A stretch of 64,000 bases of DNA, taken from Nitrospira sp. CR1.1 (GTDB lineage: Bacteria; Nitrospirota; Nitrospiria; Nitrospirales; Nitrospiraceae). The notes below the pieces were generated by a model, which saw nothing but the letters and a program-made list of their open reading frames with translations, did not search any database and was not told the origin of the DNA. Made by a program: the position numbers and the translations under genes. The stretch lies in NCBI GenBank assembly GCA_014055465.1, contig WIAF01000005.1:186001-250000 (forward strand), read 5' to 3'. Positions 29,584 to 31,008 of the stretch are shown one piece after another. Every line of letters starts with the position of its first letter. Position 1 is the first letter of the stretch.

Positions 29584-29745
29584 CTACCGACCGGCCGTTT
29601 GCTTGCGGCAACCACATTGGCAATTGGTTTGCTCGCAGCGACAGGCGTTGGCCTGGCATCCACAGGAACAGGATGCGCATTCGCAGGTTCCGCAACAGCT
29701 TGTCTTGGCAATCTTCTGCACGGGGGTTCTTTTCATGTCGGCCAT
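29584..29745 (-). CDS. Metallothionein-like cysteine-rich protein (53 aa)
   Basis: This short gene encodes 53 residues with 12 cysteines: MADMKRTPVQKIAKTS, then CC-x2-CxC-x2-CxCxC-x4-CxC-x4-CxCxC (residues 17-46), ending RKQTAGR. It has no histidine, aromatic residue or membrane span, as in metal-thiolate cluster proteins; the spacing differs from the histidine-containing SmtA type. A strong AAAGGAG lies eight bases before the ATG. It is divergent from an ECF sigma gene with a cysteine-rich tail, suggesting metal-induced expression. Expected role: cytoplasmic binding of Cu(I), Zn or Cd. The metal cannot be told from sequence. Confidence 0.82.
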   Translation of the reverse strand: MADMKRTPVQKIAKTSCCGTCECASCSCGCQANACRCEQTNCQCGCRKQTAGR

Positions 29746-29795
29746 GGCGGGTCTCCTTTGAGATGCCGACGCGTGATTGCGTCGTCACAAAGGCT

Positions 29796-29821
29796 GACGT
29801 ATGCCTCCCGGAAACCTTACA
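29796..29821 (-). promoter_or_regulatory. Candidate ECF-type promoter of the metallothionein gene
   Basis: On the reverse strand TGTAAGG (29821-29815) and CGTC (29799-29796) are 15 bases apart, resembling ECF promoters that combine a TGTAA-type -35 with a CGTC -10. The predicted leader would be about 45 bases. It lies in the 106-bp gap shared with the sigma factor gene, which could itself be autoregulated. Sequence-based guess only. Confidence 0.35.
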
Positions 29822-29851
29822 GTTCTACACACAGTTTGGTAAGCTGCTCCC

Positions 29852-30439
29852 ATGAGCCTCGAATCAAATACCTCGACAGCTCTCTCGCCGGAGGCCATTG
29901 CGCAACTGGTGAAGGGACACCGTGAGTTCCTGGCCTTCTTGGAACGGCGTGTGGAATCTCGCGCCGTGGCAGAAGATATTTTACAGACGGCCTTTACCCG
30001 TGGATTGGAGCGCGGGGCCGGCGTGCAGGACGAAAAGGTCGTCGCCTGGTTCTATCGGGTGCTCCGCAACGCCGTAATCGATCACTACCGGCAGCGCTCC
30101 ACCACCGCGCGAGCGATGGAAGCCTGGGGGCGAGAATTTCCGGATGTGCAGGAGCCGGAAGCGGAGCTGCGGCAGGAGATCTGCCGGTGCGTCTCGGGCC
30201 TGTTGGAGACGCTCAAGCCGGAATATCGCGAGGCCCTGCGGATCGTGGATCTGGAAGAAGGCAAGCTGAAAGATCTCGCTCAACAGTCAGGCATCACCGC
30301 CGAAAATGCGGCGGTTCGCGTGCATCGAGCCAGGGCGGCGCTGCGTCGCCAAATCGAAAAGGCCTGCGGTACCTGTTCCATTCACGGCTGTTTGGATTGT
30401 TCCTGTGAGTCATCCGGCGGATCGACTTGCGGAACATGA
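29852..30439 (+). CDS. ECF sigma factor with cysteine-rich C-terminal domain (CorE/ECF44-like)
   Basis: The 195-aa protein has sigma region 2 (residues about 20-90, DILQTAFTRGLERG, VVAWFYRVLRNAVIDHYRQ) and region 4 (about 115-170, LKPEYREALRIVDLEEGKL, ENAAVRVHRARAALRRQIE). A tail of about 25 residues follows: CGTCSIHGCLDCSCESSGG, then CGT. It has six cysteines and a histidine. CorE of Myxococcus xanthus, founder of ECF44, is switched by metal binding to such a tail and needs no anti-sigma factor. None is encoded nearby here. Divergence from the metallothionein gene supports a metal-responsive role. Confidence 0.88.
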   Translation: MSLESNTSTALSPEAIAQLVKGHREFLAFLERRVESRAVAEDILQTAFTRGLERGAGVQDEKVVAWFYRVLRNAVIDHYRQRSTTARAMEAWGREFPDVQEPEAELRQEICRCVSGLLETLKPEYREALRIVDLEEGKLKDLAQQSGITAENAAVRVHRARAALRRQIEKACGTCSIHGCLDCSCESSGGSTCGT

Positions 30440-30473: not shown

Positions 30474-30503
30474 TTGCATTTGGCGCGACTGGCCCCGTAT
30501 GCT
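30474..30503 (+). promoter_or_regulatory. Sigma70-like promoter of the toxin-antitoxin/HesB-like genes
   Basis: TTGCAT (30474-30479) and TATGCT (30498-30503) are 18 bases apart. The expected start lies within about three bases of the antitoxin ATG at 30513 and there is no ribosome site, so the mRNA is probably leaderless. Confidence 0.45.
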
Positions 30504-30512
30504 CGAAACATC

Positions 30513-30731
30513 ATGACCCAACCGACTATCACCATATCCAATTTAAGCCTGACGGAACTCAAGAACCTGGTCGAAGGGATCGTGGACGACCGATTACGCA
30601 CGCTGCTGGGTGACCCGGATCTCGGCGCGCCCCTCGGCGAGTCGGTTCGCGATCGCCTCAAGCAATCCCTGGCTTCGACGGAACGCATCACCGGTGACGA
30701 AGTAGCCGACAAACTCGGCCTGCGGTGGTGA
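30513..30731 (+). CDS. Antitoxin of a RelE/ParE-type pair
   Basis: The 72-aa protein reads MTQPTITISNLSLTELKNLV, EGIVDDRLRTLLGDPDLG, then a helical tail with ITGDEVADKLGL. It is acidic and helix-rich like antitoxins, and lies one base before a RelE-like toxin gene. The DNA-binding family is not clear. The pair forms a cassette with the following HesB-like gene only five bases further on. The start was chosen because a good promoter ends just before it. Confidence 0.7.
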   Translation: MTQPTITISNLSLTELKNLVEGIVDDRLRTLLGDPDLGAPLGESVRDRLKQSLASTERITGDEVADKLGLRW

Positions 30732-30732
30732 T

Positions 30733-31008
30733 ATGCCCTGGTTTCGCTTAGCCTTCCGGCCTGATGTGATTACCGACTTGAGCGCTGCCGACCCAACCAT
30801 GGCGCAACGGTTGTTCGACAAGACGAAGTGGCTGGCCTCCAATGTGGATAATCTGCGCCATGAGCCGGTCGCTGCCGACCTGCCCGGGATCCATAAATAT
30901 GCGGTGGGCGACTGGCGGATTTTCTATTCGATCGACCGGACCGAACAACTTGTAGACATTCACCACATCCAGCACGCGGCGTCGACTCAACGGGCTAGAC
31001 CAGCCTGA
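30733..31008 (+). CDS. RelE/ParE superfamily toxin
   Basis: The 91-aa protein carries the RelE-type pattern: an early helix (DPTMAQRLFDKTKWLASN), then LPGIHKYAVGDWRIFYSID and EQLVDIHHIQH. This is the core beta sheet with the G-D-W-R-I-F-Y strand of plasmid-stabilisation/RelE toxins. They usually cleave mRNA at the ribosome or inhibit gyrase. It is translationally linked to the antitoxin (one-base gap). Confidence 0.82.
   Translation: MPWFRLAFRPDVITDLSAADPTMAQRLFDKTKWLASNVDNLRHEPVAADLPGIHKYAVGDWRIFYSIDRTEQLVDIHHIQHAASTQRARPA

Follow-up and report, generated by a model that had tools for sequence, protein, structure and literature searches.

Results

A metallothionein-like gene and a CorE-like sigma factor gene share an intergenic region

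The window analysed here is a 64,000-nt stretch of contig WIAF01000005.1 from Nitrospira sp. CR1.1, a member of a nitrite-oxidising genus. Within it, two genes diverge from an intergenic region of 106 bp (29746-29851), one encoding a short cysteine-rich peptide and the other an ECF sigma factor. The features of the locus are as follows.

29745..29584, minus strand: metallothionein-like ORF with an ATG start; 53 aa, 12 Cys, no His, Phe, Trp or Tyr
29759..29753, minus strand: ribosome site of the metallothionein gene (AAAGGAG), separated by 7 nt from its ATG
29767..29784, minus strand: CGACGC-AATCAC-GCGTCG, a stem-loop of the predicted 5' UTR that lies between the promoter and the ribosome site
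29796..29821, minus strand: predicted metallothionein promoter for the CorE-like sigma factor, TGTAAGGTTT (29821-29812), N12, CGTC (29799-29796)
29817..29845, plus strand: conserved promoter-like pair TTACAG-N17-TAAGCT of the sigma gene, 6 nt before its ATG
29852..30439, plus strand: CorE-like ECF sigma factor with a C-terminal cysteine-rich domain (CRD), 195 aa
30182..30190, plus strand: CXC motif (Cys111, Cys113) in the sigma2-sigma4 linker
30365..30430, plus strand: cysteine-rich domain C172-x2-C175-x4-C180-x2-C183-x-C185-x7-C193, with the spacing of the CorE copper type

The pair is flanked by an SbcCD-like gene on the left and by ParE-like toxin and Fe-S biosynthesis-like genes on the right. 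No copper gene was found among the examined neighbours of the Nitrospira pair. Directly 3' of the sigma gene, a small ORF and the ParE-like toxin gene (30495-31008, plus strand) resemble a toxin-antitoxin pair.

The peptide gene is conserved and linked to the sigma gene

The 53-aa frame is present in 19 of the 29 genomes of the genus Nitrospira. In all 19, the peptide is exactly 53 residues long and its 12 cysteines, arranged as CC-x2-C-x-C-x2-C-x-C-x-C-x4-C-x-C-x4-C-x-C-x-C, are invariant. The pooled dN/dS of the gene is 0.21 overall, 0.095 in the cysteine core and 0.37 at the N-terminus. Because the frame and length are conserved, the cysteines invariant and dN/dS low, the ORF is more than a chance reading frame; it is a real gene. 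Across a phylum sample of 396 genomes, the peptide occurs in only one of 169 genera. Searches against Pfam and NCBIfam, including their metallothionein models, gave no match up to E=1, and none of the solved structures searched matched the peptide. A plasmid search for the metallothionein found none. The peptide does meet the broad criteria for a metallothionein (a short chain in which Cys makes up some 20% or more, in C-x-C or C-x-x-C arrangement, without aromatics), with 12 cysteines among 53 residues. Since no family model or structure matches, the label rests on composition and context.

An orthologous sigma gene (84% or more) is found in the same 19 genomes and in one further genome, G030, where the contig ends inside the peptide gene and leaves a truncated copy. 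The two genes are divergent in all 20 of these genomes, with a spacing of 105-107 bp where it could be measured, and the remaining nine genomes have neither gene. Linkage of the pair in the genus is thus constant. Candidatus Nitrospira defluvii (FP929003.1) is among the relatives of the window. A first description of the locus, made before any database search (the sequence-only reading), had reported a 53-codon gene with 12 cysteines, no histidine or aromatics and a ribosome site, lying 106 bp from a divergent sigma gene whose product ends in six cysteines and a histidine; all of this held. It had proposed conservation of the frame in related genomes and of the linkage as tests, and both were met, the first in 19 of 29 genus genomes and the second in 20 of 20, with recurrence in Acidobacteriota (see below).

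The sigma factor carries the cysteine pattern of CorE

The sigma factor shows the expected ECF architecture, with Sigma70_r2 and Sigma70_r4_2 above the Pfam cut-off and only the sigma2 and sigma4 domains. Its sole cysteines are Cys111 and Cys113 of the linker and six in the tail (172, 175, 180, 183, 185 and 193); the tail, CGTCSIHGCLDCSCESSGGSTC, also holds one histidine. In CorE of Myxococcus xanthus, the CRD cysteines are 181, 184, 189, 192, 194 and 206 (PMC3107203). C172, C175, C183 and C185 correspond to the invariant CRD cysteines 181, 184, 192 and 194 of CorE with identical spacing, and these four together with the CXC are invariant across 20 aligned CRD-ECFs. The linker CXC, the second hallmark of CorE-like factors (PMC8999054), is kept in all intact orthologs as well as in the 20 aligned relatives. 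Cys189, the main residue for copper activation of CorE (PMC3107203), corresponds to C180 here; this position is Cys in the Nitrospirota and Acidobacteriota members and Phe or Arg in five alphaproteobacterial plasmid copies. In this alignment of 20 sequences, the tail of one locus (L121) is poorly aligned.

By its CXC and CRD spacing, the sigma factor belongs to the CorE-like CRD-ECF class, while metal-dependent DNA binding and transcription are inferred. The gene has a pooled dN/dS of 0.125, and no anti-sigma domain was detected by Pfam in the genes adjacent to it. SigZ (TIGR02959) was rejected as its identity, with a score of 101.6 bits against a curated cut-off of 168.65. In genome G035 (L007/L103), the sigma gene is frameshifted after codon 151, so that either the copy has decayed or the assembly is wrong at this point. 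A 2011 list of CRD-ECFs already included NIDE1902 of N. defluvii (PMC3107203). This protein is very likely the ortholog of the window's sigma factor, as the latter has a sole strong match in the N. defluvii genome, although the locus-tag match itself is inferred.

Two overlapping promoter-like elements and a stem-loop lie between the genes

The motif TGTAAGGTTT-N12-CGTC faces the peptide gene and is kept at a fixed place in 19 of 19 Nitrospira loci, in one of them as TGTAATGTTT. With one mismatch allowed, the window's genome has no second copy of it; with two, the number of sites equals that of the control. A relaxed form, TGTAAGGNTT-N11-14-CGTCNG, has 21 matches in the 29 genomes, 19 at the metallothionein locus and two elsewhere. 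Conservation of this promoter-like motif and its near-uniqueness are direct results. They give the picture of a regulon with the metallothionein as its single target, an inference rather than a proof, and weaker sites could still be minor targets.

The sigma gene is preceded by TTACAG-N17-TAAGCT, which scored below threshold in a sigma70 consensus scan, so no standard sigma70 promoter is confirmed for this gene. Because the pair ends 6 nt before the ATG, the sigma transcript is predicted to be leaderless. Two Acidobacteriota loci have a TACGCT or TAGGCT version ahead of a GTG start, and in one of these the sigma and peptide genes are not divergent; the TTACAG-N17-TAnGCT pair is absent in several other loci of that phylum. 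The TTACAG on the sigma side lies opposite CTGTAA, the -35 element of the peptide promoter. From this overlap, we infer that the two promoters should exclude each other, which might act as a brake on sigma synthesis.

The stem-loop in the predicted 5' UTR is conserved by pairing. In an alignment of 23 sequences, 97.1% of stem cells are paired and 14 cells have changed on both sides; with 25 sequences, eight of them from Acidobacteriota, the values are 90.7% and 17. When the partner is slid as a control in the larger set, only 20-41% of cells pair. Since the sequence varies while pairing is kept, with many G-U intermediates, an RNA stem is favoured over a DNA operator. Located near the 5' end, the stem-loop may protect and stabilise the mRNA or tune it, a plausible guess rather than a result.

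The pair recurs in Acidobacteriota

Scanning contigs beyond the genus revealed the pair in two Terriglobia MAGs (L114 and L115). A class-wide search found it in eight of 399 Terriglobia genomes, in one of these on what is very probably a misbinned Nitrospira contig. Beside each Terriglobia peptide lies a CorE-like sigma gene (66-81% identity), and before each lies the promoter motif, as TGTAATGTTT in L140. The 5'-UTR hairpin recurs there together with the pair and its promoter. Some Terriglobia pairs are tandem rather than divergent. Two loci (L115 and L136) keep the motif before the metallothionein gene without a divergent sigma gene. In L115, the sigma gene is followed by a variant motif, next comes an operon that includes a multicopper oxidase gene, and the peptide gene, with a motif of its own, stands last. 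One locus, L102 (JADZCI010000367.1), filed under a Bryobacterales MAG, is the same contig as the G844 match and was not counted as independent. Because it shows the Nitrospira sbcCD-metallothionein-sigma arrangement, it is very probably a misbinned Nitrospira contig.

In the sigma tree, drawn with a midpoint root, the metallothionein-linked factors form one clade (support 99/99) with Nitrospira inside the Acidobacteriota branch. This nesting makes transfer of the module between the phyla likely. An origin restricted to Nitrospirota is rejected by the Terriglobia pairs and the sigma tree.

The promoter motif extends to the wider CRD-ECF family

All nine Terriglobia sigma genes at least 67% identical to that of L114 adjoin a small cysteine-rich ORF, one of the nine being the misbinned contig already mentioned. 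Unrelated small cysteine-rich ORFs lie beside several more distant sigma genes (L157, L159, L164, L168, L169 and L170). As a control, 118,871 bases yielded one such ORF by chance. The motif TGTAA[GCT]-N15-17-CGT[CT] occurs in 17 of 21 wider Acidobacteriota CRD-ECF loci, where 1.6 are expected and one is found with the motif reversed. In distant Nitrospiraceae it occurs directly 3' of the sigma gene in eight of ten loci (0.69 expected). The loci of the first motif control had been chosen by near-match to the motif and were therefore biased upward, so the reversed motif, the base-composition expectation and unselected flanks were used instead; the unselected flanks hold the motif twice in 126 kb.

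The distant Nitrospiraceae factors neighbour genes for HMA domains, E1-E2 (P-type) ATPases, an outer-membrane efflux protein and DUF4396. In addition, a CorE-like copy on a Manganitrophus plasmid is followed within a few genes by one for a copper-translocating ATPase.

Several neighbours of unassigned function are worth recording. DUF4396-type genes lie beside CorE-like sigma genes in four Nitrospiraceae loci (L043, L044, L049 and L050); as such genes adjoin the sigma gene, some right behind a TGTAATAAT-CGTC site, a copper role is suggested for them. L133 (1501-3028), L114 (6226-7441) and L115 (3128-3535) encode a protein that looks secreted and a small membrane protein, neither with a Pfam family. 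Proteins of this kind recur beside Acidobacteriota CorE-like sigma genes and are candidate new copper proteins; one such pair has TGTAAGGTTT-N12-CGTC in front. Near a CorE-like sigma gene in L154, an ORF at about 3404 (minus strand) has DUF326-like cysteine motifs that resemble those of four-helix copper storage proteins, with a Pfam score just under the cut-off.

Discussion

The two genes very likely form a compact, self-contained sensor-effector module for copper stress, in which the identity of the metal, activation through the tail, transcription of the target and metal binding by the peptide are inferred. In the mechanism we propose, the cell would keep a low level of the sigma factor at all times, expressed from the gene's own leaderless promoter. 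By analogy to CorE, the factor would stay inactive in the absence of copper and would be switched on when the metal, most likely as Cu(II), binds the C-terminal cysteines together with the linker CXC. The activated factor would then direct RNA polymerase to TGTAAGGTTT-N12-CGTC, with the metallothionein gene as its main and perhaps only target. The 12-cysteine peptide would bind excess cytosolic Cu(I), the signal would fall, and the loop would thereby limit itself. As inferred from CorE, switching on would need no anti-sigma factor.

The CorE comparison made in the sequence-only reading holds at the level of residues, in the linker CXC and the CRD spacing (PMC3107203, PMC9023288). Its inference that the sigma factor drives the metallothionein is well supported by the conserved ECF-type promoter, while metal-induced expression and metal binding are inferred. 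Three points are corrected: the metal, left unspecified, is most likely copper; the pair reaches beyond Nitrospirota; and 'ECF44' is an old label, because the 2021 ECF scheme leaves CorE unclassified (PMC8999054). The case for copper is itself an inference, made without expression, binding or metal data. It is favoured because of the CorE-type cysteine spacing and the copper genes that neighbour relatives of the sigma factor.

The same wiring could instead serve zinc, cadmium or silver. Metallothioneins bind zinc and cadmium too, and the close relative CorE2 answers to Cd(II) and Zn(II) (PMC8999054). However, the cysteines of the tail are spaced C-x4-C-x2-C-x-C, without the two adjacent cysteines on which CorE2 specificity depends (PMC9023288), and relatives of the factor adjoin HMA and P-type ATPase genes or, in L115, a multicopper oxidase. 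We consider this alternative unlikely. Still less probable is that the sigma factor controls other genes, with a housekeeping sigma factor, or a repressor at the CGACGC-N6-GCGTCG palindrome, governing the metallothionein gene. The palindrome does lie 3' of the predicted promoter, a position suited to an operator, and the TTACAG-N17-TAAGCT of the sigma side overlaps the -35 element and may explain part of its conservation. Against this, the motif accompanies the metallothionein gene where the locus is rearranged and is found again next to most CRD-ECFs in both phyla, no other strong site exists in the window's genome, and the palindrome changes in sequence while keeping its pairing, as an RNA stem would and a fixed protein site would not.

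The main role of the 53-aa protein could also be to buffer redox state or sulfur, or to store or chaperone metal, with the sigma factor sensing thiol stress. Cysteine-rich tails might respond to oxidation, and the redox state of copper switches CorE itself (PMC3107203). The exact metal-sensor spacing of the cysteines and the copper-gene neighbourhood of the relatives speak against this reading, to which we give very little weight. The copper-responsive module is our preferred interpretation.

A bolder reading can be drawn for the whole family. The CorE-like sigma factors of Nitrospirota and Acidobacteriota would recognise a single promoter code (TGTAA-N15/17-CGTC), and their targets in many lineages would be dedicated metallothionein-like peptides that come in several unrelated sequences; by drawing copper from the sigma tail, the peptide would be the off-switch that replaces the missing anti-sigma factor. 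This view is compatible with the evidence, but we consider it less likely than not.

The sigma class was already known. The novelty lies in the family of metallothionein-like peptides, the promoter code, the stem-loop and the module found in two phyla. Experimental work on CRD sigma factors is confined to CorE and CorE2 (PMC8103513). In the literature we searched, no CorE-like sigma factor is described as controlling a metallothionein, which is weak evidence, as subscription papers mostly fell outside the search. The pair provides a minimal two-gene, cross-phylum module whose promoter, sensor residues and effector can be named at the level of bases and residues. With it, two questions become open to direct test: how such a sigma factor reads metal, and how it is turned off when no anti-sigma factor is present. 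Both nitrite-oxidising Nitrospira and Acidobacteriota gain a new family of metallothionein-like proteins, and the promoter code could assign copper functions to unknown genes beside such sigma factors, DUF4396 being one example.

Compared with known systems, the factor resembles CorE and the CRD-ECFs (formerly ECF44, partly ECF238) in the linker CXC, the spacing of the first five CRD cysteines and the absence of an adjacent anti-sigma gene. The targets of CorE, however, are a multicopper oxidase, P-type ATPases and related genes, whereas this clade adjoins, and apparently drives, a small dedicated metallothionein, perhaps as the only target in Nitrospira. CorE2 of M. xanthus has the same architecture but a C-C-x3-C-x2-C-x-C tail and a response to cadmium and zinc (PMC9023288); the tail here is of the CorE type. 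The smtB-smtA locus of Synechococcus, like ours, places a divergent metal sensor and a metallothionein on a shared intergenic region. SmtB is a repressor of the ArsR family, whereas the sensor here is an activating sigma factor, and the peptide has no match to the Pfam metallothionein models. MymT of Mycobacterium tuberculosis is likewise a small copper metallothionein, part of a RicR-controlled copper regulon with a multicopper oxidase (PMC10141476), but RicR is a CsoR-type regulator and works by another regulatory principle.
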